A stretch of DNA of 64,000 bases from NCBI RefSeq assembly GCF_022458985.1, contig NC_061775.1:27114319-27178318 (forward strand), read 5' to 3'. The notes under the pieces were generated by a model. That model saw only the letters and a program-made list of their open reading frames with translations. It was not told the origin of the DNA and searched no databases. The position numbers and the translations under genes were made by a program. Shown here piece by piece: positions 10,913-52,284 of the stretch. The DNA is from Mugil cephalus (lineage: Eukaryota > Chordata > Actinopteri > Mugiliformes > Mugilidae). Within the stretch, counting starts at the first letter, position 1; the number at the start of each line of letters is the position of its first letter.

Positions 10913-13900
10913 CTAATAAATGAAAAGGATAAGGGGCGCAATGAGTAGATGCATCATATTGAGTCTGACAGAGCCGGCATCACTGGTTGTCGTTGTAGTA
11001 GTTGGTGCAGCAGTGGTTGTTGTTGTAGTTGGTCTAGCAGTAGTTGTTGTAGTTGGTGAAGCAGTTGCGGTTGGAGTAGCAGTTGTTGTTGTCCAAGCAG
11101 TGGTTGTTGTGGATGGAGTAGCAGTTGTTGTTGTCCAAGCAGTTGTTGTTGGAGTAGCAGTTGTTGTTGTCCAAGCAGTGGTTGTTGTGGTTGGAGGATC
11201 AGTTGTAGTTGAAGCAGTTGTGGTTGTAGCAGCAGTTGTTGTTGTCCAAGCGGTGGTTGTTGTGCCTGGAAGATCACTTGTAGTGGTTGAAGCAGTTGTT
11301 GTTATGGTTGCAGCATCAGTTGTGGTTGGAGTGGAAGTTTTACTTGGTGTAGCAGTCATTGTGGTTGTTATCGGTGTATCAGTTGTGGTTGGAGTTAGTG
11401 CAGCAGTTGTTGTTGTGGTTGGTTCAGCAGTTGTTGTTGTGGTTGGTTCAGCAGTTGTTGTTGTAATTGGCGCAGCACTTGTTGTAGTGGTCGGTGGACC
11501 AGTTGTTGTGGTGGTTGGTGGAGGGGTTGTTGTTGTAGTTGATGCAGTACTTGTTGTTGTAATTACTGCATCAGTTGAAGGAGTTGGTGCAGTGGTTGTT
11601 GTTGTGGTTGGAGGAGCAGTAGTTGTTGTGGTTGGTGCACCAGTTATTGTTGTGGTTGGTGCAGCACTTATTGACATAGTTGGTGCAGCGGTTGTTGTTG
11701 TGGTTGGATCAGCAGTTGTTGGTGCTGCAGTTGTTGTTATAGTTGGTGCAGCAGCTGGTGTTGTAGTTGGTGGAGTGGTTGTTGTTGTTGTAGTTGGTGG
11801 AGAAGTTGTTGTAGTTGTTGCAGCAGGTGTAGTTGTGGTTGTGGTTGATGCAGCTGTATTAGTTGTGGTTGGTGCAGCGGTTGTTGTTGTAGTTGTGGTT
11901 GGTGCAGCAGTTGTGGTTGGTGTAATTGTTGTTGTAATTGTTGGAGCGGTTGTTGTTGTTGTAGAAGGTGTAGAAGGTGTTGTTGTAGTTGGTGCAGCAG
12001 TTGTAGTTGTGGTTGGTGCAGCAGTTGTTGTTGTAGTTGTAGTTGGTGCAGCAGTTGTGGTTGTAGTTATGATTGGTTCAGCAGTTGTTGTTGTAGTTGT
12101 GGTTGGTGGAGCAGTTGTTGTATTTGGTTCAGCGGTTGTTGTGGTTGTGGTTGGTTCAGCTGTTGTTGTAGTTGGTGGAGAAGTTGTTGTTGTAGTTGGT
12201 GCAGCAGTTGTAGATGTGATTGGTGCAGGTGTAGTTGTTTTGGTTGGTGGAGCAGTTGTAGTTGGTGCAGCAGTTGTTGTTGTGGTTGGTTCAGCAGTTG
12301 TTGTTGGTTCAGCAGTTGTTGTTGTAGTTGTGGTTGGTGGAGCATTTGTTGTAGTTGTGGTTGGTGCAGCAGTTGTTGTGGTTGTGGTTGGTTCAGCGGT
12401 TGTTGTTGCAGCAGTTGTTGTTGTGGTTGGTGGACCAGTTGTTGTAGTTGGTGCAGCAGTTGTTGTTGTGGTTGTAATTGGTTCAGCAGTTGTTGTTGTA
12501 GTTGTAGTTGGTGCAGCAGTTGTGATTGCAGTTGTTGTTGTCCAAGCAGTGGTTGTTGTGGTTGGAGGATCAGTTGTAGTTGAAGCAGTTGTGGTTGTAG
12601 CAGCAGTTGTTGTTGTCCAAGCGGTGGTTGTTGTGCCTGGAAGATCACTTGTAGTGGTTGAAGCAGTTGTTGTTATGGTTGCAGCATCAGTTGTGGTTGG
12701 AGTGGAAGTTTTACTTGGTGTAGCAGTCATTGTGGTTGTTATCGGTGTATCAGTTGTGGTTGGAGTTAGTGCAGCAGTTGTTGTTGTGGTTGGTTCAGCA
12801 GTTGTTGTTGTGGTTGGTTCAGCAGTTGTTGTTGTAATTGGCGCAGCACTTGTTGTAGTGGTCGGTGAACCAGTTGTTGTGGTGGTTGGTGGAGGGGTTG
12901 TTGTTGTAGTTGATGCAGTACTTGTTGTTGCAATTACTGCATCAGTTGAAGGAGTTGGTGCAGTGGTTGTTGTTGTGGTTGGAGGAGCAGTAGTTGTTGT
13001 GGTTGGTGCACCAGTTATTGTTGTGGTTGGTGCAGCACTTATTGACATAGTTGGTGCAGCGGTTGTTGTTGTGGTTGGATCAGCAGTTGTTGGTGCTGCA
13101 GTTGTTGTTATAGTTGGTGCAGCAGTTGGTGTTGTAGTTGGTGGAGTGGTTGTTGTTGTTGTAGTTGGTGGAGAAGTTGTTGTAGTTGTTGCAGCAGGTG
13201 TAGTTGTGGTTGTGGTTGATGCAGCTGTATTAGTTGTGGTTGGTGCAGCGGTTGTTGTTGTAGTTGTGGTTGGTGCAGCAGTTGTGGTTGGTGTAATTGT
13301 TGTTGTAGTTGTTGGAGCGGTTGTTGTTGTTGTAGAAGGTGTAGAAGGTGTTGTTGTAGTTGGTGCAGCAGTTGTAGTTGTGGTTGGTGCAGCAGTTGTT
13401 GTTGTAGTTGTAGTTGGTGAGCAGCAGTTGTGGTTGTAGTTATGATTGGTTCAGCAGTTGTTGTTGTAGTTGTGGTTGGTGGAGCAGTTGTTGTATTTGG
13501 TTCAGCGGTTGTTGTGGTTGTGGTTGGTTCAGCTGTTGTTGTAGTTGGTGGAGAAGTTGTTGTTGTAGTTGGTGCAGCAGTTGTAGATGTGATTGGTGCA
13601 GGTGTAGTTGTTTTGGTTGGTGGAGCAGTTGTAGTTGGTGCAGCAGTTGTTGTTGTGGTTGGTTCAGCAGTTGTTGTTGGTTCAGCAGTTGTTGTTGTAG
13701 TTGTGGTTGGTGGAGCATTTGTTGTAGTTGTGGTTGGTGCAGCAGTTGTTGTGGTTGTGGTTGGTTCAGCGGTTGTTGTTGTAGTTGTGGTTGGTGCAGC
13801 AGTTGTTGTTGTGGTTGGTGGACCAGTTGTTGTAGTTGGTGCAGCAGTTGTTGTTGTGGTTGTAATTGGTTCAGCAGTTGTTGTTGTAGTTGTAGTTGGT

Positions 13901-16546
13901 GCAGCAGTTGTGATTGTAGTTGTGGATGGTGGAGCAGTTGTTGTGGTTGGTGCAGCCGTTATCGTGGTTGTGGTTGGATCAGCAGTTGTTGTTGTAGTTG
14001 TGGTTGTTGCAGCAGTTGTTGTAGTTATACTTGGTGCAGCAGTTGTGGTTGTAATTGTGGTTGTGGTTGGTTCAGCGGTTGGTGTTGTAGTTGGGGTTGG
14101 TGCAGTTGTTAGGGTTGTGGTTGGTGCAGCAGTTGTTGTTGTAGTTGGTGCATTTGTTGGAGTGGTTGTTGTTGATGTGGTTGGTGGAGAAGGTGTTGTT
14201 GTAGTTGGTGCAGCAGTTGTGGTTGTGGTTGGTGCAGCTGTAGTTGTTGTGGTTGGTGCAGCAGTTGTTGTACTTGGTGGAGCAGTTGTTGTTGTGGTTG
14301 TGGTTGGTTCAGCAGTTGTTGTTGTAGTTGTAGTTGGTTCAGCAATCGTTGTTGTAGATATGGTTGGTGGAGCAGTTGTTGTAGTTGGTTCAGCGGTTGT
14401 TGTGGTTGTGGTTGGTGGAGAAGGTGTTGTTGTAGTTGATGCAGCAGTTGTAGTTATGGTTGGTGCAGCTGTAGTTGTTGTGGTTGGTGGAGCAGTTGTT
14501 ATAGTTGGTGCAGCAGTTGTTATTGGGGTTGGTTCAGCAGTTGTTGTTGTAGTTGTGGTTGGTGGAGGAGGTGTTGTTGTAGTTGGTGCAGTTGTTGTAG
14601 TTGGGGTTGGTGGAGCAGTTGTTGTAGTTGGTGCAGCAGTTGTAGTTTTGGTTGGTGCAGGTGTAGTTGTTGTGGTTGGTGGAGCAGTTGTTGTAGTTGG
14701 TGCAGCAGTTTTTGTGGTTGGTTCAGCAGTTGTGGTTGGATCAGCAGTTGTTGTTGTTGATTCAGCAGTTGTGGTTGGTTCAGGAGTTGTTGTAGTTGTG
14801 GTTGGTGGAGCAGTTGTGGTAGTTGGTGCAGCAGTTGTTGTTGTGGTTGTTGTTGGTGTAGCAGTTGTTGTTGTGGTTGGTGCAGCAGTTGTGGTTGGTT
14901 CAGCAGTTGTTGTAGTTGTGGTTGGTGGAGCATTTGTTGTAGTTTGTGCAGCAGTTGTTGTTGTGGTTGGTTCAGCAGTTGTTGTAGTTGTGGTTGGTGC
15001 AGCAGTTGTTGTGGTTGTGGTTGGTTCAGCGGTTGTTGTTGTAGTTGTGGTTGGTGCAGTAGTTGTTGTGGTTGGTGCAGCCGTTATCGTGGTTGTGTTT
15101 GGATCAGCAGTTGTTGTTGTAGTTGTGATTGTTGCAGCTGTTGTTGTAGTTATACTTGGTGCAGGAGTTGTGGTTGTAGTTGTGGTTGTGGTTGGTTCAG
15201 CGGTTGGTGTTGTAGTTGAGGTTGGTGCAGTTGTTGTTGTGGTTGGTGGAGCGGTTGTTGTTGTTGGTGCAGCAGTTGTTGTTGTGGTTGTGGTTGGTTC
15301 AGTAGTTGTTGTTGTAGTTGTAGTTGGTTCAGCAGTTGTGGTTGTAGTTGTGGTTGGTTCAGCAGTTGTTGTTGTAGTTGTGGTTGGTGGAGCAGTTGTT
15401 GTTATAGTTGTGGTTGGTGCAGTTGTTGTTGTGGTTGGTGGAGCGGTTGTTGTTGTTGGTGCAGCAGTTTTTGTACTTGGTGGAGCAGTTGTTGTTGTGG
15501 TTGTGGTTGGTTCAGTAGTTGTTGTTGTAGTTGTAGTTGGTTCAGTAGTTGTTGTTGTAGTTGTAGTTGGTTCAGCAGTTGTGGTTGTAGTTGTGGTTGG
15601 TGGAGAAGGTGTTGTTGTAGTTGGTGCAGCAGTTGTTGTTGTGGTTGGTGCAGCTGTAGTTGTTGTGGTTGGTGGAGCAGTTGTTATATTTGGTGCAGCA
15701 GTTGTTGTTGGAGTTGGTTCAGCAGTTGTTGTTGTAGTTGGGGTGGTGAGCAGTTGTTGTAGTTGGTGCAGCAGTTGTAGTTTGTGGTGCAGGTGTAGTG
15801 TTGTGGTTGTGAGCATTGTTGTAGTTGGTGCAGCAGTTGTTGTTTGGTTGGTCAGCAGTGTGTTGGATCAGCAGTTGTTGTTGTAGTTGTGGTTGTACAG
15901 TTGTTGTGTGATCAGCAGTTGTGGTTGATTCAGCAGTTGTGGTTGGTTCAGCAGTTGTTGCAGTTGTGGTTGTGGAGCAGTTGTGTGTTGTCAGCAGTTG
16001 TGTTTGGTGTGTTGGTAGCAGTGATGATGCAGCAGTTTAGTTGTGTTGGTGATGTAGTTTTGTGGTTGGTAGTTATTAGTTGTGAGCAGTTTTGTTTGTT
16101 GGTTGGTTAGTTGATGCTGTAGTTAGTTGTAGTGGTGCAGCAGTGTTGTTGGGTTTGGTTGGTTCAGCAGTTGTTGTTGTAGTTGTACTTGGTGAGCAGT
16201 TGTGTGTAGTTGGTGTCAGCGGTTGTTGTTGTTGTGGTTGGTGGAGAAGTGATTGTAGTTGTGCAGCAGTTGTAGTTGTGGTTGGTGCAAGCTGTAGTGT
16301 TGTGGTTGTGGTGGTAGCAGTTGTTGTAGGTTGGTGGACAGTTGTTGTTGTTAGTTGGTTGGAAGTTGTTGTGTGTTGAGGAGTTTTGTAGTTGGTGCAG
16401 CAGTTGTTGTTGGTTGGTGTGCGTTGTAGGACAGTATTAGACTGTTACGTTGGTCCACTGTGATGGACACATTTGTGAAAGTATTGACCCGTGGTTGGCT
16501 CACAGGGTTTGAAGTTGAGCAAGTGTAGGAGAATGGTGAGTTATGA
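10913..16546 (-). CDS. Gene A module 3 terminal exon: LU2 second half, mucin stalk, GPI-type tail
   Basis: The Thr-rich frame is open from about 15,745 to 13,419 and again from 13,418 to the TAG at 10913-10915. A 2-base insertion (GGTGAGCAGCAG where the duplicate copy has GGTGCAGCAG) accounts exactly for the change of frame between the two parts. The stalk consists of [12 protein letters not shown]-like units with AEP, APP and ASP variants and no cysteine. The C-terminus is SDAGSVRLN followed by the hydrophobic [14 protein letters not shown], a good GPI-attachment signal. The 5' end (15,745-16,546) should encode the second half of LU2 but is riddled with small deletions, so the exact acceptor is uncertain. 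A 1,371-bp tandem duplication fills 11,157-13,918. Confidence 0.65.
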
Positions 16547-19500
16547 ATGTGGAATGTAAAGCGGTGCAACATATGAAGTCTGTTGCTTTGATCGAGATTG
16601 TGCAACTAAGTTCTTTTCAGAATACAGTGGTGCTCCACTGGGCTGTTGTTGTTTGTGTGTGATACATTGTTTGATATGACAGTCTTGTGATAAAGTGAGG
16701 TGATTTGCACAGTCAACTGGCTTAGGGGAAGAGTAATCTTGTTTAAGTGTCTTTTAAGTGAAATATAACAAACATTGAAGTTTTTTGTTAGTTGAGTGAT
16801 AACAAGTTATAAGTATTAACAGAAACCAGGAAATTAAACACAACAAAAATGTTATGAGTCCTTGCATGATGGATCCAACTTTTTGTAGCCATGAAGATTA
16901 ATGGTAGAGACACATGCTGTTAGCATTGTGCACACTCCTCCTTGTTAACTTGAAGAATTGCGGAACATCTTCTTAAAATGATGCAGGCTAAAATCTGTGC
17001 ATTACTGTACATGTGGAATAAAAGCAAGAATCATATGAAGTCTGTTATTGCATTAGACTAACAGATTTCAACTAAGTTTCATTCATGAAAAACATGGTAA
17101 ATCACATCTGGCTTGCAAGGTTAGTTTTTTGTTGATTAGTTTGTCACAGCATCTAGTTAATACAATGACACTTCAATCGCATCCAAGTTGAATGAATTTG
17201 AACAGTCCAACTGGCTGACAGTGAGGAAGAGCTAATCTTGCTTTCAAGTGTTTTGTAAGTGACAAATTATAAAACACAAACATAATGCAAAGTTTCTTTT
17301 TTATATTGACGTAGATTAACAATAGTTAACTATTTTGTAGTTAAAGAACTGATCAGGTATAAAATCTCTAAAGCTACTTTCAACTTATTAAATATTTTGA
17401 TGAATGTCTTCATGTCGACTCCATTTTACTGTTTTGTATGCAAACACCTGGAAGATTAATGGGTGCAGAAAACATTTGTTTTTGTGCTTGTGCTTACTTA
17501 CTCTCCTCCTTTTTTCCAAATCTTGAAAGAAGTAATTTGTTTGTAATTCAGATTTCATTAATCTATAGAATTTAAAATAGCCACTTACTTGTTGCCTGAA
17601 AGCATCTATCCTCCGTCCCCTTACACTGTAATGGTGTCGTGCATTGAGAGGTTGTACAAGAATTACACTTGAGGCTGTTATCTGCCGGAGTAGTAGGACC
17701 TGAAACAAGAGAACGGAAAAAAATATCAAAGGGTTAAGATTTCAAAAATACGATGAAAAAAACTAAAAATTCAGTATCTGGTCCATCTGTACTCACAAGG
17801 TAGAGTTTTTTTGTTGCAGTTGTTTTTGTCACAACACCTAGCAGATACAAGTGCACTTGAACCACCCAAGTTGAATGAAAATGTCTGACGTCCAGTGGCT
17901 GGACACAGGGAGGACGGAGCACATGCTTTGTAGATTTGCGTGAATGGAGCTCCAGATGAAGTTCCTACAGAGACAAAGTCCAGGTTGTTAACTGGTTTAA
18001 CTTGACAGTACGTGAACTTTATTTTACAGAAAATAGAAGAAGGTGACACTAGAGATAAGTCATACCTAGAATGGAGGCTGTTATACACATCGTCTCTGAG
18101 GAACATTGCTGGGATGTTGTCTTTGAACATGTCTGATCTCTGCAGGTTTGACACCGAAGAGGTTTGACTGCAGTCGGGAGAGAAAACTTTCCATGAAATG
18201 AATTCTTCATCACAAATATCAAATCAAAGATCTTCAGTGGGTAGAAAGTATTTTATTCTTGTACAAAAGCCTTTCTTTTTTCTTGTTTTTTGTTTTACCT
18301 TTAGCTTGTATTAGAATGAAACCCTCTGAATGGCCCATTTATAAGGTTCTAAATATTCTACTATTTATAGATTTTAAATGTCATTTTCATATTATTCATA
18401 TTCATCATCATTCATTCATCATAGTCATATTATTACTATTTACATACATTTTGTTTTCCAATTCTTATCTTTTTCTAGCAGTTACAAGTAAAGTTTCTGT
18501 TATGGAGATTAATATGGACAAATACAATCCAGAATATTTGCTTTGGTTAATCAAAAGTCACGTGGTTTTTCCATTTTAAATTAATAATTTTAAGTCCTAT
18601 AATAGATTAAATATAGTAGCAATGTTTGTAACAAGCAGGATTACCTCGAGGTGTTGTTGTAGTTGGTGCAGCAGTAGTTGTTGTAGTTGGTGCAGCAGTA
18701 GTTGTTGTGGTTGGTGCAGCAGTTGTTCTTGTGGTTGGTGCAGGAGTTGTTCTTGTGGTTGGTGCAGCAGTTGTTGTTGTGGTTGTACTTGGTGCAGCAG
18801 TTGTGGTTGTAGCTGTGGTTGGTTCAGCGGTTGTTGTTGTAGTTGGGGTCGGTGCAGTATTTGTTTTTGTGGTTGGTGGAGCTGTTGTTGTACTTGGTGC
18901 AGCAGTTGTTGTTGTGGTTGGTGCAGCTGTAGTTGTTGTGGTTGGTGGAGCAGTTGATGTAGTTGGTGGAGCAGTTGTTGTTGTTGTTGTGGTTGGTTCA
19001 GCAGTTGTTGTAGTTGGTGCAGCAGTTGTGGTTGTAGTTGTGGTTGTTTCAGCGGTTGTTGTTGTAGTTGTGGTTGTTGGAGCAGTTGTTGTTGTGGTTG
19101 GTGGAGCGGTAGTTGTTGTTGTGGTTTGTTCAGCAGTTGTGGTTGATTCAGCAGTTGTTGTTGTGGTTGGTGCAGCAGTTGTTGTTGTAGTTGGTGCAGT
19201 TGTTGGAGCGGTTGTTGTTGTTGTAGTTGGTGGAGAAGGTGTTGTTGTAGTTGGTGCAGACGTTGTGGTTGTGGTTGGTGCAGCTGTAGTTGTTGTGGTT
19301 GGTGCAGCAGTTGTTGTACTTGCTGGAGCAGTTGTTGTTGTGGTTGGTTCAGCAGTTGTTGTTGTAGTTGTAGTTGGTTCAGTAGTTGTTGTTGTAGTTG
19401 TGGTTGGTGGAGCAGTTGTTGTGGTTGGTTCAGTGGTTGTTGTGGTTGTGGTTGGTGGAGAAGGTGTTGTTGTAGTTGGTGCAGCAGTTGTTGTGTTTGA

Positions 19501-22500
19501 TTCAGCAGTTGTGGTTGGTTCAGCAGTTGTGGTTGTAATTGTGGTTGGTGAAGAAGGTGTTGTTGTAGTTGGTGCAGTTGGTGTAGTTGTGGTTGGTGGA
19601 GCAGTTGTTGTAGTTGGTGCAGCAGTTGTTGCTGTGGTTGGTTCAGCAGTTGTGGTTGGTTCAGCAATTGTTGTGGTTGTGGTTGGTGGAGCAGTTGTTG
19701 TAGTTGGTTCAGCAGTTGTTGTTGTGGTTGTTGTTGGTTCGGCGAGTGTTGTTATAGTTGTGGTTGGTGTAGCAGTTGTTGTTGTAGTTGTGGTTGGTGC
19801 AGTAGTTGTTGTGGTTGGTGCAGCCGTTATCGTGGTTGTGTTTGGATCAGCAGTTGTTGTTGTAGTTGTGATTGTTGCAGCTGTTGTTGTAGTTATACTT
19901 GGTGCAGCAGTTGTGGTTGTAGTTGTGGTTGTGGTTGGTTCAGCGGTTGGTGTTGTAGTTGAGGTTGGTGCAGTTGTTGTTGTGGTTGGTGGAGCGGTTG
20001 TTGTTGTTGGTGCAGCAGTTGTTGTTGTGGTTGGTTCAGTAGTTGTTGTTGTAGTTGTAGTTGGTTCAGCAGTTGTGGTTGTAGTTGTGGTTGGTTCAGC
20101 AGTTGTTGTTGTAGTTGTGGTTGGTGGAGCAGTTGTTGTGGTTGGTTCAGTGGTTGTTGTGGTTGTGGTTGGTGGAGAAGGTGTTGTTGTAGTTGGTGCA
20201 GCAGTTGTTGTGTTTGATTCAGCAGTTGTGGTTGGTTCAGCAGTTGTGGTTGTAATTGTGGTTGGTGAAGAAGGTGTTGTTGTAGTTGGTGCAGTTGGTG
20301 TAGTTGTGGTTGGTGGAGCAGTTGTTGTAGTTGGTGCAGCAGTTGTTGCTGTGGTTGGTTCAGCAGTTGTGGTTGGTTCAGCAATTGTTGTGGTTGTGGT
20401 TGGTGGAGCAGTTGTTGTAGTTGGTTCAGCAGTTGTTGTTGTGGTTGTTGTTGGTTCGGCGAGTGTTGTTATAGTTGTGGTTGGTGTAGCAGTTGTTGTT
20501 GTAGTTGTGGTTGGTGCAGTAGTTGTTGTGGTTGGTGCAGCCGTTATCGTGGTTGTGTTTGGATCAGCAGTTGTTGTTGTAGTTGTGATTGTTGCAGCTG
20601 TTGTTGTAGTTATACTTGGTGCAGCAGTTGTGGTTGTAGTTGTGGTTGTGGTTGGTTCAGCGGTTGGTGTTGTAGTTGAGGTTGGTGCAGTTGTTGTTGT
20701 GGTTGGTGGAGCGGTTGTTGTTGTTGGTGCAGCAGTTGTTGTTGTGGTTGGTTCAGTAGTTGTTGTTGTAGTTGTAGTTGGTTCAGCAGTTGTGGTTGTA
20801 GTTGTGGTTGGTTCAGCAGTTGTTGTTGTAGTTGTGGTTGGTGGAGCAGTTGTTGTGGTTGGTTCAGCGGTTGTTGTGGTTGTGGTTGGTGGAGAAGGTG
20901 TTGTTGTAGTTGGTGCAGCAGTTGTTGTTGTGGTTGGTGCAGCTGTAGTTGTTGTGGTTGGTGGAGCAGTTGTTATATTTGGTGCAGCAGTTGTTGTTGG
21001 GGTTGGTTCAGCAGTTGTTGTTGTAGTTGGGGTTGGTGGAGAAGTTGTTGTAGTTGGTGCAGCAGTTGTAGTTTTGGTTGGTGCAGGTGTAGTTGTTGTG
21101 GTTGGTGGAGCAGTTGTTGTAGTTGGTGCAGCAGTTGTTGTTGTGGTTGGTTCAGCAGTTGTGGTTGGATCAGCAGTTGTTGTTGTAGTTGTGGTTGGTG
21201 GAGCAGTTGTTGTGGTTGATTCAGCAGTTGTTGTGGTTGATTCAGCAGTTGTGGTTGGTTCAGCAGTTGTTGTAGTTGTGGTTGGTGGAGCAGTTGTGGT
21301 AGTTGGTGCAGCAGTTGTTGTTGTGGTTGTTGTTGGTGTAGCAGTTGTAGTTGGTGCAGCAGTTGTAGTTGTGGTTGGTGCAGCTGTAGTTGTTGTGGTT
21401 GGTGGAGCAGTTGATGTAGTTGGTGGAGCAGTTGTTGTTGTGGTTGTGGTTGGTTCAGCAGTTGTTGCTGTAGTTGTAGTTGTAGTTGGTGCAGCAGTTG
21501 TTGTTGTGGTTGTGGTTGGTTCAGCAGTTGTTGTTGTAGTTGTACTTGGTGCAGCAGTTGTGGTTGTAGCTGTGGTTGGTTCAGCGGTTGTTGTTGTTGT
21601 GGTTGGTGGAGACGGTGATGTTGTAGTTGGTGCAGCAGTTGTAGTTGTGGTTGTAGTTGGTGCAGCTGTAGATGTTGTGGTTGTGGTTGGTGCAGCTGTT
21701 GTCGAGGTTGGTGGAACAGTTGTTGTTGTAGTTGGTGGAAAAGTTGTTGTTGTGGTTGGAGGAGTTGTTGTTGTAGATGGTGCAGCAGTTGTTGTGGTTG
21801 GTGGAGCAGTTGTAGGGACAGTATTACAGAAACTGGTTCCACAACAGGTTGGTCCACTGCTGATGGAACCAACTTTTGCCATGAAAGGTATTGAACCCAG
21901 GCTGGTAGCAGCTGCACAGAGGTTTGAAGATGCACAGCCAAGAGCAGGAGAACTGGTGGAGCCATTGGACACTGTGGAAGTAAAAGCAGAGTGGAACATA
22001 TGAAGTCTGTTGCTTTAGACTCACAGATTTCACTAAGTTCTTTTCATGAAATTCAGTGGTGTAACATCACATCTGGCTGCAGGTTGTTTTTGTGTGTAGT
22101 GATACATTAGTTTATGACTAATGACCACTTCCATCTGCATCCAACTGTGAAGGTGGATTTTGACACAGGTCAAACTGGCTTTCAGTTTGAGAGAAGAGCT
22201 AATCTCTGCTTTCAAGTGTCTTTTAAGTGACAAATTATAAAACAAAATCATAATGCAAAGTTTCTTTTGTTTATTGACGTAGATTAACAATAGTTAACTA
22301 TTTTGTAGTTAAAGAACTGTCAGGTTAAAATCTCTAAAGCTACTTTCAACTTATTAAATATTTTGATGAATGTCTTCATGTCAGACTCCATTTTACTGTT
22401 TTGTATGCAACACCTGGAAGATTAATGGGTGCAGAGAACATTTGTTTTTTGTGCTTGTGCTTACTTACTCTCCTCCTTTTTTCCAAATCTTGAAAGAAGT

Positions 22501-25500
22501 AATTTGTTTGTAATTCAGATTTCATTAATCTATAGAATTTAAAATAGCCACTTACATGTTGCCTGAAAGCATGTGTCCTCCGTCCCCTTACACTGTAATG
22601 GTGTCGTGCATTGAGAGGTTGTACAAGAATTACACTTGAGGCTGTTATCTGCCGGAGTAGTAGGACCTGAAACAAGAGAACGAAAAAAAATATCAAAGGG
22701 TTAAGATTTCCAAAATACGATGAAAAAAACTAAAAATTCAGTATCTGGTCCATCTGTACTCACAAGGTAGAGTTTTTTTGTTGCAGTTGTTTTTGTCACA
22801 GCACCTAGCAGATACAAGTGCACTTGAACCACCCAAGTTGAATGAAAATGTCTGACGTCCAGTGGCTGGACACAGGGAGGATGGAGCACATGCTTTGTAG
22901 ATTTGCGTGAATGGAGCTCCAGATGAAGTTCCTACAGAGACAAAGTCCAGGTTGTTAACTGGTTTAACTTGACAGTACGTGAACTTTATTTTACAGAAAA
23001 TAGAAGAAGGTGACACTAGAGATAAGTCATACCTAGAATGGAGGCTGTTATACACATCGTCTCTGAGGAACATTGCTGGGATGTTGTCTTTGAACATGTC
23101 TGATCTCTGCAGGTTTGACACCGAAGAGGTTTGACTGCAGTCGGGAGAGAAAACTTTCCATGAAATGAATTCTTTATCACAAATATCAAATCAAAGATCT
23201 TCAGTGGGTAGAAAGTATTTTATTCTTGTACAAAAGCCTTTCTTTTTTCTTGTTTTTTGTTTTACCTTTAGCTTGTATTAGAATGAAACCCTCTGAATGG
23301 CCCATTTATAAGGTTCTAAATATTCTACTATTTATAGATTTTAAATGTCATTTTCATATTATTCATATTCATCATCATTCATTCATCATAGTCATATTAT
23401 TACTATTTACATACATTTTGTTTTCCAATTCTTATCTTTTTCTAGCAGTTATAAGTAAAGTTTCTGTTATGGAGATTAATATAGACAAATACAATCCAGA
23501 ATATTTGCTTTGGTTAATCAAAAGTCATGTGGTTTTTCCATTTTGAATTTATAATTTTAAGTCCGATAATAGATTAAATATAATAGCAATATTTGTAACA
23601 AGCAGGATTACCTCGAGGTGTTGTTGTAGTTGGTGCAGCAGTAGTTGTTGTAGTTGGTGCAGCAGTTGTTGTTGTAGTTGTGATTGGTGTAGCAGTTGTT
23701 GTTGTGGTTGGTGCAGCAGTTGGGGTTGTGGTTGGTGCAGCAGTAGTTGTTGTGGTTGGTGCACCAGTTGTTGTTGTGGTTGGTGGAGCAGTTGTTGTAG
23801 TTGGTGCAGCAGTTGTTGTTGTAGTTGTGATTGGTGTAGCAGTTGTTGTTGTGGTTGGTTCAGCAGTTGGGGTTGTGGTTGGTGCAGCAGTAGTTGTTGT
23901 GGTTGGTGCAGCAGTTGTTGTTGTGGTTGGTGGAGCAGTTGTTGTAGTTGGTGCAGCAGTTGTTGTTGTGGTTGTGGTTGGTTCAGCAGTTGTGGTTGTT
24001 GTTGTGGTTGGTTCAGCGGTTGTTGTTGTGGTTGTGGTTGGTGCAGCAGTTGTTGTGGTTGGTGCAGCCGTTGTTGTGGTTGGTGGAGCAGTTGTTGTAG
24101 TTGGTGCAGCAGTTGTTGTTGTGGTTGGTTCAGCAGTTGTAGTTGGTTCAGCAGTTGTGGTTGGTGGAGCAGTTGTTGTAGTTGGTGCAGCAGTTGTTGT
24201 GGTTGTTGCTGGTTCAGCGGTTGTTGTTGTAGCTGTGGTTGGTGTAGCAGTTGTTGTTGTGGTTGGTGCAGCAGTTAGGGTTGTGGTTGGTGCAGCAGTT
24301 CTTGTTGTTGTTGGTTCAGTTGTTGTTGTTGTAGTTGTTGCAGCGGTTGTTGTTGTTGTAGTTGGTGGAGAAGGTGTTGTAGTTGGTGCAGCAGTTGTAG
24401 TTGTGGTTGGTGCAGCTGTAGTTGTTGTTGTTGGTGGAGCAGTTGTAATTGGTGCAGCAGTTGTTGTGGTTGTGGTTGGTTCAGCAGTTCTTGTTGTAGT
24501 TGTAGTTGGTGCAACAGTTGTGGTTGTAGTTGTGGTTGGTTCAGCGGTTGTTGTTATAGTTGTGGTTGGTGCAGCAGTTGTTGTAGTTGTACTTGGAGCA
24601 GCAGTTGTGGTTGTAGCTGTGATAGGTTCAGCGGTTTTTGTTGTAGTTGTAGTCGGTGCAGCAGTAGTGGTTGTAGTTGTGGTTGGTTCAGCGGTTGTTG
24701 TTGTAGTTGTGGTTGGTGCAGCAGTTGTTGTAGTCATACTTGGAGCAGCAGTTGTGGTTGTAGCTGTGGTTGGTTCAGCGGTTGTTGTTGTACTTGTGGT
24801 TGGTGGGGCAGTTGTAGTTGGTGCAGCAGTTGTTGTTGTTGCGGTTGGTTCAGCAGTTGTTGTTGTTGTTGTAGTTGGTGCAACAGTTGTGGTTGTAGTT
24901 GTGGTTGGTTCAGCAGTTGTTGTAGTTGTGGTTGGTGCAGCAGTTGTTGTAGTTGTACTGGGAGCAGTTGTTGTGGTTGTAGCTGTGCTAGGTTCAGCGG
25001 TTGTTGTCGTTGTTGTGGTTGGTGGAGCGGTTGTTGTTGTTGTGGTTGGTGTAGACGGTGATGTTGTAGTTGGTGCAGCAGTTGTAGTTGTGGTTGTAGT
25101 TGGTGCAGCTGTAGTTGTTGTGGTTGGTGCAGCTGTTGTCGAGGTTGGTGGAACAGTTGTTGTTGTAGTTGGTGGAACAGTTGTTGTTGTGGCTGGAGGA
25201 GTTGTTGTTGCAGATGGCGCAGCAGTTGTTGTGTTTGCTGGAGCAGTTGTAGGGACAGTATTACACAAACTGGTTCCACAACAGGTTGGTCCACTGCTGA
25301 TGGAGCCAACTTTTGCCATGAAAGGTATTGAACCCAGGCTGGTAGCAGCTGCACAGAGGTTTGAAGATGCACAGCCAAGAGCAGGAAAGCTGGTGGAGCC
25401 ACTGGACACTGTGGAAGTAAAAGCAGAGTGGAACATATGAAGTCTGTTCACTCACAGATTTCAGGAGATCCAGGAGAGTTTTTTTTCTTTAAATATAGAG

Positions 25501-26954
25501 GTCTACAATCAGATGTTACTGCAGGTTGTGTTTGGTTGTGGAGATACATTAGTTCATGAGTAATGACTGTGACAGCCCTTAACCTCCTGACTTCCTGCCT
25601 TTCTAGATTTAGAAGGAAGTGGGAAGTAATCAACATGCCACCTGTAATTGCTGCTGCTCTTCAGTTGTAAACTGGCCACTTTTGCTTTGTTCGTTTTGTT
25701 TAGTTTTGACAAGTCACTCCACAGCACACTGTCACATACATGCCAACACTACTGTTGTTACAGATTTAACATCAGGTAATTTGGTAAGTAGAACTTAATT
25801 AAATCCTTAGACAAAACAATTGTTGTCCTCTCCCCCATGTCATATATATATATCACTTTTTTAAATGGAGAAAATTGTGATGATTTTCATTTTTGTTAAT
25901 CTATAGTATTTAAAATAACCACTTACTTACCTGTTGCCTGAAAGCACCTGTCCTGCAGTCCTTTACATCTTAATGGTGTCGTGCATGCAGAGTTTTTACA
26001 AGAATTACACTGGAGGCCATTATATTCCTGAGTCTCCTGGACTGAAACAACAGAGCAGAGAAAATATTAAAGGATTAAAATTTCAGTGATATCATATGAA
26101 AACCGTTGTTTCTTGTTTACAGTCATTATTTGCTCTTAAATAAGCATCTGATCCATCTGTACTCACAAGCTTTATTTCTATTGTTGCAGTTATTTTTGTC
26201 GCAGCACGTAACCGCTGCAAATGAATCACCGAAGTTGACTGAAAATGCCTGAGGTCCTGGACACTGGGAGGATGGAGCACATCCTTTGTAGATTTGCTGT
26301 TCCGGAGTTCCAGACACAGTTGCTACAGAGACAAAGTTCAAGTTTCGTAACTGGTTCAACTTCACAGTACATGAACTTGCTTTCACAGAAAATTAAAAAA
26401 AAAATGTGACACGAGAGATAAATCCTACTTTGAATGAAGGATGTTATACACATCATCGTCTCTGAGGAACATTGCTGGGATGTCGTCTTTGAACATGTCT
26501 GATCTCTGCAGGTTAGACATCGAAGAGCTCTGGCTGCAGTCAGGAGAGAAATATCTTCATGAAATGATTCCTTTTTCACAGATGTCAAATCAAAAGTCTT
26601 CCATGGGCGGAAGCTATTTTGTTCTTGTGCAAAATCATTACTTGCTTTTACCTTATGTTGGATACGTGTTGTATTAGAGTCAAAATCTCTAAGTGACCCA
26701 TTTATATGGTTGTAAATATTCTACTTTATATACACTTTGAAAGCAATTTTCATATTATTATTTAGTTATTTCTAGCAGTTACATCTAATGACTCTGTTAT
26801 GGAGATCATTAAAGACAAATACAGTAAGTAAGTAAGTAAGTAAGAAGTTTAAATCCTTTAGTAGATTAAGTATAGTAGCAGCATTGTAAAAATAGACAGA
26901 ATTACCTGTGCTGGAGATGGTCCAGAGGAGAATCAGAGAAAGAATCAGCTTCAT
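10913..26954 (-). CDS. Gene A: signal peptide plus three LU-LU-mucin modules and a GPI-type tail
   Basis: Minus-strand gene of about 16 kb. Exons: signal peptide 26906-26954; module 1 = 26429-26533, 26167-26322, 25931-26041, 23612-25408; module 2 = 23033-23134, 22764-22931, 22556-22666, 18645-21971; module 3 = 18066-18167, 17797-17964, 17589-17699, and 10913 to about 16546. Every junction I can place is GT/AG and phase 1. The mucin exons of modules 1 and 2 have no stop and end in a donor (CTCGAG then GTAATCC), so the reading continues into the next LU exon. Modules 1 and 2 are open throughout. Module 3's last exon has a noisy 5' part and a 2-base insertion near 13,419. If those are errors, the product is a cell-surface mucin-like protein of about 4,000 residues with six LU domains. 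Three separate genes are less likely, because modules 2 and 3 lack a signal exon and modules 1 and 2 lack a GPI tail. Confidence 0.7.
11157..13918. repeat. 1,371-bp in-frame tandem duplication inside the mucin exon
   Basis: Copy 1 is about 11,157-12,527 and copy 2 about 12,528-13,918. Landmarks such as CCAAGCAGTG (11,171 and 12,542) and TTGACATAGT (11,671 and 13,042) are exactly 1,371 bases apart, which is 457 codons. By eye the copies differ by only a few substitutions, one 18-base unit gain or loss and the 2-base insertion in copy 2. Confidence 0.85.
15740..17340. other. Indel-dense stretch with two degraded copies of the LU2 exon start
   Basis: Compared with 21,840-22,320 (module 2), the stretch holds two tandem, noisy versions of the same exon-5 start and intron: about 16,430-16,830 and 16,860-17,340. 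Both contain phrases such as CATATGAAGTCTGTT and CAACTGGCT, with frequent single-base losses and gains. Beyond about 17,340 the match to module 2 becomes nearly perfect again. An unpolished or mis-joined assembly segment explains this pattern at least as well as decay. Confidence 0.6.
17589..18167 (-). CDS. Gene A module 3 LU exons (LU1 and first half of LU2)
   Basis: Three exons, 18066-18167 (102 nt), 17797-17964 (168 nt) and 17589-17699 (111 nt), encode LU1 plus the first half of LU2. LU1 cysteines appear as [30 protein letters not shown] and [10 protein letters not shown], the ten-cysteine LU pattern with the CCxxxxCN end. The LU2 part reads [17 protein letters not shown] and DRCFQAT. Donors are GTATGA, GTGAGT and GTAAGT. 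The whole block, introns included, is almost identical to module 2 at an offset of 4,967 bases, which marks a recent duplication. Confidence 0.85.
18168..18644 (-). other. Intron joining mucin exon 2 to module 3 (copy of intron 1)
   Basis: The intron begins GTAATCCTGC after the mucin exon and is closely similar to the intron behind the gene B signal exon (42,000-42,414) and to 23,135-23,611. Both contain the phrase 'ATTAGAATGAAACCCTCTGA'. It shows that each internal module starts with a duplicated copy of intron 1. Confidence 0.75.
18645..21971 (-). CDS. Gene A module 2 exon: LU2 second half and about 1,050-residue mucin stalk
   Basis: Single exon of 3,327 nt, open from the acceptor (CCACAG before TGTCCAATGG) to the donor (CTCGAG then GTAATCC). 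Residues 1 to about 55 complete LU2: [17 protein letters not shown], then [11 protein letters not shown]. The rest is a cysteine-free stalk of Thr runs separated by AAP, AEP, APP, ADP and SPP, expected to be densely O-glycosylated. This is the longest fully intact mucin exon in the window and shows that the minus-strand Thr frame is the selected one. A 717-bp tandem duplication lies inside. If the donor is not used, the frame ends 11 codons later ([12 protein letters not shown]), giving a form without a GPI signal. Confidence 0.85.
19400..20910. repeat. 717-bp in-frame tandem duplication inside mucin exon 2
   Basis: The landmarks CAGCCGTTAT (19,821 and 20,538) and TTGTGTTTGA (19,491 and 20,208) are both 717 bases (239 codons) apart. 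The copies are nearly identical. The same block is also recognisable in the module 3 stalk around 14,950-15,740 (CAGCCGTTAT at 15,078). Confidence 0.85.
22556..23134 (-). CDS. Gene A module 2 LU exons (LU1 and first half of LU2)
   Basis: Exons 23033-23134 (102 nt), 22764-22931 (168 nt) and 22556-22666 (111 nt) are all open and phase 1. The cysteine pattern is the same as in module 3: [11 protein letters not shown] at the start, [11 protein letters not shown] in the middle and CCDKNNCN at the end of LU1, then LKCNSC and [18 protein letters not shown] for LU2. Both domains have ten cysteines once joined to the following exon, as in the uPAR/PLA2-inhibitor-gamma type of paired LU domains. The ligand is unknown. 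Confidence 0.87.
23135..23611 (-). other. Intron joining mucin exon 1 to module 2 (copy of intron 1)
   Basis: Near-identical to 18,168-18,644 and clearly related to intron 1 of gene B. It starts GTAATCCTGC directly after the mucin codons, where a signal-peptide exon would end in gene B. Confidence 0.75.
23612..25408 (-). CDS. Gene A module 1 exon: LU2 second half and mucin stalk
   Basis: Single exon of 1,797 nt, open throughout. It begins [18 protein letters not shown] and continues to [12 protein letters not shown], completing LU2, then runs about 540 residues of Thr-rich stalk ([17 protein letters not shown], occasional VAP and ATP units). It ends TTTTPRG at a phase-1 donor, so the protein continues into the LU1 of module 2. 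It is the shortest of the three gene A stalks. Confidence 0.85.
25931..26533 (-). CDS. Gene A module 1 LU exons (LU1 and first half of LU2), diverged
   Basis: Exons 26429-26533 (105 nt, one extra Met codon giving ETMMCIT), 26167-26322 (156 nt) and 25931-26041 (111 nt). LU1 reads [33 protein letters not shown] and [12 protein letters not shown]2 starts [20 protein letters not shown] and ends DRCFQAT. It is open with GT/AG sites and phase 1. It is clearly more diverged from modules 2 and 3 than those are from gene B: the second exon is four codons shorter, lacking the ATGR-type segment. Confidence 0.85.
26822..26844 (+). repeat. (AGTA)n microsatellite in gene A intron 1
   Basis: Five to six AGTA units in the intron behind the signal exon. 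Confidence 0.85.
26906..26954 (-). CDS. Gene A exon 1: signal peptide
   Basis: ATG at 26954 opens [17 protein letters not shown], with a basic residue, a hydrophobic core and a small-residue end, then a GTAATT donor after 49 nt (phase 1). The preferred ATG is the one aligned with genes B and F. The 5' UTR would be short, with the TATA box about 73 bases upstream. Confidence 0.85.
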
Positions 26955-27026
26955 GATGGAGAACAAGTTATTGCTGTTGATTGATTTTCCTTGATGGAGA
27001 CACTGCAGCTGGTCACTTTCACGTGT

Positions 27027-27036
27027 CTTTATATAC
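27027..27036 (-). promoter_or_regulatory. TATA box of gene A
   Basis: The minus strand reads GTATATAAAG about 73 bases upstream of the ATG. The same string sits at the same distance in gene B (42535-42544). In the decayed gene C it has changed to GTACATAAAG (52003-52012). Paralogue conservation supports it as the core promoter. Confidence 0.65.
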
Positions 27037-28076
27037 TAGACCAGTGAATAGCATTACGTATCATGCATACGTAGAACCCCTGGAGATTTGGGTGTGATCC
27101 CATTTGCACAGCGTGATTGTTCAGACTGACATCCTTAGAACGCCAGCATACCTTAGCACACCCTTTTTTAATCCATTAATTGTTTTCCCATGAAGAACAT
27201 CTCAACTTTTAATTTCCATTTCCCTCTTGGGCAGCAGGCATAACAGCTTAATCAACTTAGCTGTCAAATCCCCAACAAAAGAATATAATACTGTCAATAA
27301 ATCATAATTGATATATTTAATTCAGAAACCCGTTAATTCATTTACTTTGGCATTTTTGAGCACAGTTTCATATTCATTTCGTGCATGAATGACACACTGT
27401 TCAGTTATGCTGTCATTTAAGTATCTGGGTCTTATTACATTGTCGAAAGTAAAATAAACATATGTAATCTATAAACATATGTAATCACAGTCACTTGTGT
27501 TCAACAGAAGTAGGCCACATAATGGACAGTTGTGACAGTATTGACACTAACATGCACACCTACTCCAATTTTAGAAACACAAATACAAACTAGTGTGTTG
27601 GGGTTTATAATGTGGAAGGAGAGTGAAGCATACAGGTATGAAAAGAATCTGATACTGATTCAGGTTATCCAACAGCCTGTGACCATCACCACCTCACTGA
27701 TACGGTTTCAAAATCAGTTGAACATTATGACATAACTGTCATGAAGAATGAGTATTTCATTTAAAGAGACTCATTTTAAAATGCATGCATTTAATGTAAT
27801 GAACTTGCCTGAAAAGAGCTTTAAAAGTTTCAGAAAATTTGCTTTATCCTGTTTGTGTGTGTGTTTTGTTGAAAGTGTGCTGCTGCCGCACATGGATACT
27901 CTGCAGGTTAAATTATGAAACTTGATATTTCATTTTTATTTTATTTATTTATTTTTTGGCAATTAACTAAATGTAAGTTAATTTACAAAGGATTTATCTC
28001 CTTGGAAATAAAGTTATTCAGGCACTGCATACATCATATAGAAATAACAAATTAACATCTGGCACAGTCGATACTA
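27037..28076. other. Gene A 5' flank, paralogous to gene B 5' flank
   Basis: No gene seen. Blocks between about 27,060 and 27,720 match 42,570-44,090 upstream of gene B in order: 'CTTAGCACACCCT', 'GCTGTCAAATCCCCAACAAA', 'AGAATCTGATACT'. This shows the 5' flank was duplicated with the gene. A small open frame at 27,532-27,735 has no support. Confidence 0.55.
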
Positions 28077-28813: not shown

Positions 28814-28862
28814 CTGTGCTTGAGATTGTCCAGAGGAGAATCAGAGAAAGAATCAGCTTCAT
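28814..28862 (-). pseudogene. Orphan signal-peptide exon F
   Basis: The minus strand reads [16 protein letters not shown] over 49 nt, like exon 1 of genes A and B, but the donor is ATAATT instead of GTAATT. No LU exon follows: the intron is cut short at about 28,731 by the inverted mucin fragment. It is a remnant of a deleted family member. Confidence 0.7.
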
Positions 28863-42544: not shown

Positions 42545-42721
42545 TAGACCAGTGAACAGCTTTACGTCTTATGCATACGTAGAACTACCAGAGTTTGGGT
42601 GTGATCCCATTTTTACAGCATGATTGTGCGCATCGACTTCCTCAGAAAGTACAGCACACCTTAGCACACCCTGCTTTAACTCTGCCATTGTTTTCCTGTG
42701 AACAACAGTGTATCGTCTTAA

Positions 42722-51935: not shown

Positions 51936-52284
51936 AAAACAACTCAGTGCTGTTGACTGGTTTCCCTTGATGGAGACACTGCAGCTGGTCAGTTTCACTC
52001 GTCTTTATGTACTAGACTACGTCTGATGCATATGTAGAACCCCTGGAGGTTTGGGTGTGATCCTGTTTTACAGCGCGGTTATTCAGAGTGACATTCTTAG
52101 GAAGCCAGCACACCTTAGCACACACTTCTTTAACAGTTTTCCTGTGAAGAACAGTATATCATCTTAACTTTTAATCTGCCATGTTCGGAAGCAACAGGAC
52201 AACCTCCTTAATATATTAGCTGTCAGTCCCCATCAAAACAATAGAATACTGTCAATAAACCAACATAGGTGAATTTTAGGCTAG
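51936..52284. other. Gene C 5' flank
   Basis: Matches the promoters of A and B, including the changed TATA box GTACATAAAG (minus strand, 52003-52012) and the empty TTAA site (52164-52167). No gene. Confidence 0.55.

Follow-up and report, generated by a model that had tools for sequence, protein, structure and literature searches.

The window, by which we mean the whole stretch of 64,000 nucleotides analysed here and which we take to come from a percomorph fish, holds a cluster of LU-LU-mucin genes and gene remains on the minus strand. The cluster consists of gene A (26954-10913), gene B, the remains around the signal exons at 51940 and 28862, gene D and part of a further mucin gene at 57-64 kb (Table 1). 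The family layout in the window is a signal exon followed by the exons LU1a, LU1b and LU2a and by an exon that carries LU2b together with a Thr/Pro-rich region, all of them in phase 1. As read from the DNA, gene A has one signal exon (26954-26906) and then three LU-LU-mucin modules.

The other copies are variously damaged. The LU2b exon of gene B (40782-40631) carries small gaps, and the reading phase of this gene is unreadable in many scanning windows between 40.5 and 39.2 kb and changes several times further on. Phase breaks are also found in gene D, whose mucin has two phase changes and whose GPI-like tail is of a different type, and in the mucin at 57-64 kb. From its sequence, the copy at 52018-50900 looks like a pseudogene.

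Table 1. Features of the LU-LU-mucin cluster, in positions of the window
Feature	Position	Strand	Remarks
Gene A promoter/5'UTR-like block	26985-27042	minus	conserved, TATA-containing; counterparts at 42550 and 52018
Gene A signal-peptide exon	26906-26954	minus	16 protein letters; donor phase 1
Module 1 LU1a exon	26429-26533	minus	
Module 1 LU1b exon	26167-26322	minus	
Module 1 LU2a exon	25931-26041	minus	
Module 1 LU2b + mucin exon	23612-25408	minus	599 codons; 3' end is a phase-1 donor
Intron after module 1 mucin	23135-23611	minus	88% to gene B intron 1, homology from the donor; AATAAA at 23224
Module 2 LU1a exon	23033-23134	minus	no preceding signal exon
Module 2 LU1b exon	22764-22931	minus	
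Module 2 LU2a exon	22556-22666	minus	first codon of the exon adds a 21st cysteine
Module 2 LU2b + mucin exon	18645-21971	minus	1,109 codons; 3' end is a phase-1 donor
Intron after module 2 mucin	18168-18644	minus	98% identical to the post-module-1 intron; AATAAA at 18257
Module 3 LU1a exon	18066-18167	minus	
Module 3 LU1b exon	17797-17964	minus	
Module 3 LU2a exon	17589-17699	minus	last readable LU exon
Error-like block	15820-17300	minus	two irregular copies of intron tail + LU2b (17364-16812, 16838-16429)
Module 3 LU2b exon	16429-16553	minus	noisy remnant
Module 3 mucin	10985-16428	minus	phase breaks within the noisy block and near 13.44 kb
GPI-type C-terminal tail	10913-10984	minus	23 protein letters and stop
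Gene B	42463-30066	minus	single LU-LU module, mucin ~10.6 kb, GPI-type tail
Copy with promoter block and signal exon	52018-50900	minus	signal exon 51940; start codon lost, LU exons truncated
Orphan signal exon	28862-28606	minus	donor GT changed to GA; inverted mucin-repeat stretch ~100 bases on
Gene D	7386-2007	minus	divergent signal exon, in-frame stop in LU1a, frame change in LU2a
3' part of a further mucin gene	64000-57038	minus	GPI-type tail; start outside the window

The reading frame and junctions of gene A

Spliced from the signal exon to LU2a of module 3, the 12 exons of gene A give 2,102 codons without a stop, and all 11 junctions lie in phase 1 because the lengths of the exons after the first are multiples of three. 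An earlier note on this DNA had proposed that, in modules 1 and 2, the mucin exon runs to a phase-1 donor and continues into a phase-1 LU1 exon. This is indeed what is found: both exons end in CACCTCGAG, with the intron beginning gtaatcct, in phase 1 and exactly at 23612 and 18645, and the acceptors that follow lead into phase-1 LU1 exons starting at 23134 and 18167. The note had further held that LU1 of modules 2 and 3 has no signal exon ahead of it, and the search agrees. At a tolerance of at most 18 mismatches in 58 bases, the signal exon matched at five places on the minus strand of the window (51940, 42463, 28862, 26954 and, weakly, 7386), none of which lies before module 2 or 3. The promoter block has three copies in the window (52018, 42550 and 27042), with none upstream of module 2 or 3. 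Used as a tblastn query, the GPI tail of the family gives listed matches that comprise three at E <1e-5 (57091-57038, 30136-30068 and 10984-10916) and a weaker one at 2072-2007 (E 0.08); none of those listed falls in module 1 or 2. It is thus confirmed that the mucin exons at 25408-23612 and 21971-18645 have an open frame with neither stop nor GPI tail, and that gene A has its GPI-type tail only after module 3.

The introns between the modules reveal where these junctions may have come from. They are 98% identical to each other, and compared with the intron 1 that follows the signal-peptide exon they are 71% identical to that of gene A and 88-89% to that of gene B. On the downstream side of the mucin donors, gene B intron 1 is matched at 27 of 30 bases, equally for both modules, and on the upstream side at only 9 of 30; in bins of 15 bases, identity to gene B is 13/15 and 14/15 downstream and 5/15 and 4/15 upstream. 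On this comparison, the mucin-exon donors and the introns behind them are homologous, beyond chance, to the family's intron 1 and the exon-1 donor ahead of it. Since the homology starts at the donor, a gene-B-like copy appears to have supplied the exon-1 donor to which the end of a mucin exon was joined, and such a fusion would preserve the frame, as exon 1 ends in the same phase 1 that the cassettes have. The motif CCTCGAGGTAATC, with which these exons end, is present in the window at two places only, the two mucin-exon junctions. A point against splicing there is that the mucin donors have T at +5, where splice donors prefer G, as do the signal-exon donors.

Overall, one transcript through modules 1 and 2 and the start of module 3 is well supported at the level of sequence, because the frame is continuous, the donor and intron derive from exon 1, no internal promoter or signal exon is found and gene models in other fishes are alike. 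Each inter-module intron contains 16 ORFs that start with ATG, none of which codes for a strongly hydrophobic segment. Among intron ORFs of at least 10 residues, the highest ten-residue Kyte-Doolittle mean is 0.92 in the inter-module introns, whereas the true signal reaches 2.63 and the best decoy from intron 1 of gene A reaches 1.45. An ORF of 34 codons in each inter-module intron (from 23305 and 18338) contains a phase-1 GT and has a peak hydropathy of 0.92, and it counts against the single-unit model.

Even a single transcript might often end early, the donor being read through to a stop at about 23574 or 18607 so that secreted isoforms of one or two modules without a GPI anchor would be made. 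The frames are open past the donors to these stops, and each inter-module intron contains one AATAAA (23224 and 18257; intron 1 of gene B has two), which could permit early 3' ends. However, the mucin donors are homologous to the signal-exon donor of the family, and the gene models of relatives run on into the next module; frequent early ending is therefore an unlikely, if not negligible, alternative.

LU heads, mucin rods and the end of module 3

Module 1 (39.9 bits), module 2 (31.6) and gene B (28.3) all match Pfam PF00021 above its gathering cut-off of 24.8 bits. LU1 and LU2 together hold 20 cysteines in module 1 and 21 in module 2, where one lies in the linker, with ten per LU and the CC....CN ending. 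While modules 1 and 2 differ at 46 of 176 aligned residues, none of the 20 cysteines of module 1 is hit (hypergeometric P 0.0015), and judged by this pattern the LU exons are under constraint. The additional cysteine in the LU1-LU2 linker is found in modules 2 and 3 (22666 and 17699, minus strand), at a place where gene B has F (F to C), and could possibly be unpaired or engaged between modules.

In the mucin rods, which are about 550 residues long in module 1 and about 1,060 in module 2, the reading phase is constant in 26 of 26 and 51 of 51 scanned windows, respectively, and the composition is dominated by Thr (0.60-0.61), Pro (0.14-0.15) and Ala (0.14-0.18). The open mucin was nevertheless rejected as evidence of coding; it is weak because the other frames of the repeat are also largely stop-free. 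Codon-position counts in mucin repeat words with a single difference give an order of positions that differs among modules 1, 2 and 3.

Six pairs make up the dN/dS table, in which module 1 gives ratios of 0.95, 0.75 and 0.92 against module 2, module 3 and gene B. Across the three LU exons, module 2 (23134-22556) and gene B (41956-41372) are separated by 21 nonsynonymous and 0 synonymous differences (binomial P 0.0034, for a pair picked after the table had been seen), and their introns differ by 3-14%. Module 3 and gene B differ by 22 nonsynonymous and 3 synonymous changes (P 0.12), and modules 2 and 3 by 1 and 3, respectively. Given the weaker values of the other pairs and the post hoc choice of this one, positive selection on the heads is a lead to follow and no finding; the counts hint at fast-changing heads.

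Modules 2 and 3 are nearer to gene B than to module 1. By contrast, the LU2b exon of module 1 is 97% identical to that of module 2, the high identity beginning just before the LU2b acceptor. With this near-identity module 1 looks like a mosaic, and exchange among the copies is likely.

The end of module 3 is less orderly. In the alignment of module 3 with module 2, each 100 bases open 0-1 gaps until 1,400 bases beyond the donor, and the following 100 (from ~17.25 kb) open 12. Its LU2b remnant (16553-16429) shows 114 matches and 6 mismatches, with 34 of the 154 query bases missing and 5 extra. The second irregular copy (17364-16812) has 28 bases missing and 23 extra in the intron part, and 9 missing and 57 extra in the LU2b part. 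Under the lenient gap penalties used for the LU2b copies, the remnant scores 153 (best of 50 shuffles, 84) and the second copy 135 (best shuffle, 88). As gaps far exceed mismatches in these pieces, the region gives the impression of poor polishing or a misjoin more than of simple decay. In the mucin that follows, seven of the nine windows from 16.3 to 15.8 kb show no readable phase, and the phase changes again near 13.44 kb; an internal copy lies 1,371 bases from this break and is free of that length difference. The frame of module 3 towards the GPI-type tail at 10984-10913 is broken in the assembly, and the tail was judged by sequence likeness.

The single beads-and-stalks protein with six LU domains that the earlier note had put forward thus holds in part. 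The frame is continuous through modules 1 and 2 and the start of module 3, while from the last LU exon of module 3 to the GPI tail it is interrupted in the assembly. Because the LU2b of module 3 is error-like and duplicated and the mucin frame breaks near 13.44 kb, a chain of six LU domains cannot be read directly to the tail, and we infer the link from that LU exon through the mucin to the tail. That six LU domains and a GPI anchor belong to one chain is likely.

The same region could tempt one to regard modules 2 and 3 as a single module represented by two haplotypes placed in tandem, in a gene that really has two modules. The stretch of 1,400 bases that starts at the donor and takes in the intron, LU1a, LU1b and LU2a is 94-100% identical per 100 bases between the two, after which module 3 enters the error-like, duplicated sequence that resembles a poor join; the mucins of modules 1 and 2 also resemble each other at both ends (96% identity in the initial 240 bases and 98% in the final 60). 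What disfavours the haplotypes is that the mucin interiors of modules 2 and 3 align at only 78-86% (8 longest of 82 alignments), with those of modules 1 and 2 at 78-87% (8 longest of 35). One fusion junction would persist anyway, and we find such an artefact quite improbable.

That the modules are three separate genes, or genes and pseudogenes, with modules 2 and 3 having unseen starts of their own or being dead 5'-truncated copies, is very unlikely. In favour of this reading, nearby copies are damaged (ATG lost at 51940, donor lost at 28862, stop in LU1a of gene D) and intron read-through gives an in-frame ATG just 5' of module 3 LU1a, although no hydrophobic signal is coded there. Against it, promoter block and signal exon are absent ahead of both modules, module 1 has neither GPI tail nor stop ahead of its donor, and module 2 has an open frame with conserved cysteines.

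Relatives in other fishes

A search with the LU pair of module 2 found 42 proteins at E<=0.001 among 179 candidates, in fishes including Mugil cephalus, Dicentrarchus and flatfishes, all of these relatives being known as predicted proteins. Among the 12 of the 42 that were inspected, most are single modules; P0016 and P0022 end before LU2b, and P0001 of Cyprinodon has a third LU. A search for longer proteins added 8 of 593 candidates and one seeded with P0043 yielded 9 of 2,677, of which 4 were new. LU domains were counted in 14 of the 54 proteins collected. The largest numbers are 13 in P0051 of Oreochromis aureus, which amounts to six and a half modules, and 13 in P0052 of Sarotherodon. Gouania willdenowi has 12 in P0053 and 8 in P0054, with almost no mucin between the pairs, which suggests that LU arrays can exist without rods. 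Oreochromis niloticus has 8 in P0043, a visibly chimeric model where retroelement domains are also present, 5 in P0045 (the fifth a partial match) and 4 in P0047, whose two modules are followed by a GPI-like tail. Salarias P0046 has 7, and Platichthys flesus P0044 has 6 in three LU-LU-mucin modules. The remaining counts are 4 and 3 in Pleuronectes P0048 and P0049 (the latter irregular), 3 in Cyprinodon P0001, 2 in the irregular Scortum P0050 and 2 in Dicentrarchus P0002, a single module with a GPI-like tail.

The unnamed models P0044, P0047, P0045, P0043, P0051, P0052, P0048 and P0046, with 4 to 13 LU domains, share the LU-LU-mucin repeat of gene A, whereas the Thr/Ser/Pro-rich linkers of the fish models are 23-188 residues long against about 550 and 1,060 in gene A. 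Software has given fish models names such as mucin-5AC-like, integumentary mucin C.1-like and mucin-2. By eye, the later modules of P0044, P0047 and P0051 start roughly where module 1 starts once its signal peptide is set aside, and the window shows this too. P0044 and P0048 end in a common non-GPI stretch (..IIYLKMKIS.SGELSNE..), to which the end of Salarias P0046 is similar by eye, and no Pfam match is listed for this end in the three proteins.

In a module tree of 39 rows, selected from the matches, most modules group by lineage. The window modules and three Mugil cephalus proteins form a mullet group (100/98), which makes a mullet the likely source of the window, and groups are likewise formed by the tilapias (100/100), the flatfishes except turbot (100/98) and two of the three Salarias modules (100/98). 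The exceptions are module 3 of Salarias, which stands apart on a very long branch, and two pieces of Cyprinodon P0001 that are ungrouped. From this grouping, building or homogenisation of arrays has probably happened more than once; such a pattern would follow from independent array growth in the lineages as well as from gene conversion within arrays. Further, module 2 of Pleuronectes P0048 clusters with the three Platichthys modules (99/95) and not with module 1 of P0048, so that this array probably predates the split of Pleuronectes and Platichthys.

A fusion model in the light of known LU proteins

We consider it probable (roughly 0.75) that gene A, a member of a percomorph LU-LU-mucin family, forms a single transcription unit that was built by fusion of a mucin exon to an exon-1 donor. 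One promoter and signal exon would serve a chain of phase-1 cassettes, each made of LU1a, LU1b, LU2a and LU2b with mucin. The mucin-exon end of one gene would have been connected to a gene-B-like neighbour at that neighbour's exon-1 donor, followed by its intron 1. What lay in between (the GPI tail with its stop, the intergenic DNA, and a promoter with its signal exon) would have been lost, and a terminal mucin exon would have become internal in the correct phase. Subsequent duplication or conversion could then have given rise to modules 2 and 3. The predicted product is a glycoprotein of the secretory pathway, with paired LU heads along O-glycosylated Thr/Pro/Ala rods and a GPI anchor after module 3. 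In this model, the splicing of gene A, the order of the fusion, the O-glycosylation, the GPI anchoring and the last part of module 3 are inferred.

Its role would probably be to display binding heads in the epithelial glycocalyx. Mucin rods extend by ~0.25 nm per residue, and the rods of modules 1 and 2 would perhaps reach about 0.4 micrometre, or ~0.8 with module 3. Heads placed in pairs at several heights would point to multivalent binding, or to a decoy function, at the epithelial surface. More tentatively, and with considerable reservation, percomorphs may repeatedly build giant multi-head surface proteins by fusing a mucin exon to a neighbour's exon-1 donor and then multiplying the cassette, so that fast-changing LU heads on very long rods, here perhaps nearly a micrometre, act as a multivalent display or decoy in mucus. 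A terminal exon that captures an exon-1 donor may offer tandem paralogues a simple way to fuse into a multi-head protein, and with such long rods and heads that may change fast, a role in surface recognition can be put to the test.

Known LU proteins, as presented in excerpts of the papers cited, offer partial parallels. C4.4A (LYPD3) has the order LU-LU-mucin-GPI, with a Ser/Thr/Pro-rich mucin-type region and 15 putative O-glycosylation sites (PMC7053344). Each gene A module has this LU-LU-mucin order, but C4.4A is one module, whereas gene A chains modules with rods of about 550 and 1,060 residues. In mammalian multi-LU proteins the N-terminal LU is described as having no 7-8 disulfide (PMC6600238), while gene A keeps ten cysteines in both LUs, and on this missing-disulfide criterion it does not come out as a C4.4A/LYPD3 orthologue. 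The excerpts of that review describe teleost LU work as in its infancy and report that zebrafish two-LU proteins have ten cysteines in each LU (PMC6600238). CD177 has four LU domains in two LU-LU subdomains with a 20-residue linker and a GPI anchor (PMC13022285). Like gene A, whose anchor is predicted, it repeats LU-LU pairs in one polypeptide, but it has two pairs on a short linker, with no mention of mucin rods in the excerpts of PMC13022285, against six predicted LUs in gene A. The excerpts of PMC4864438, an LU paper, do not cover a mucin region.

Among excerpted surveys, the human multi-LU cluster has two to four LU domains (PMC7053344), and the teleosts examined in a chordate survey have only two-LU genes, save a three-LU gene of Lates attributed to recent domain duplication (PMC6337849); chains of 4-13 LU domains in several fish genera would revise this two-to-four-LU picture (PMC7053344, PMC6337849). 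No title or abstract among the matches listed from the open-licence literature deals with LU-LU-mucin arrays, which leaves their absence unproven. A sea bass scale dataset, as excerpted, includes an 'integumentary mucin C.1-like' transcript, which may or may not belong to the LU-LU-mucin family (PMC6861651).

At the level of structure, uPAR (PLAUR) would have the LU fold in common with gene A, but as three consecutive LUs with no LU-LU-mucin repeat. The module 2 sequence alone gave no PDB match up to E 1; with a family profile, all seven matches were uPAR chains. A model of the relative P0002 (mean pLDDT 76.9, pTM 0.60) had uPAR or C4.4A as each of its top 28 PDB matches, with TM-scores of 0.24-0.48 by query length. 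Its match to C4.4A (6iom_A) has E 1.9e-06, a TM-score of 0.29 by query length and an rmsd of 10.6, the two-domain pairing being unmatched, and its best fold match is uPAR (9yc5_A), with a TM-score of 0.48 by query length.
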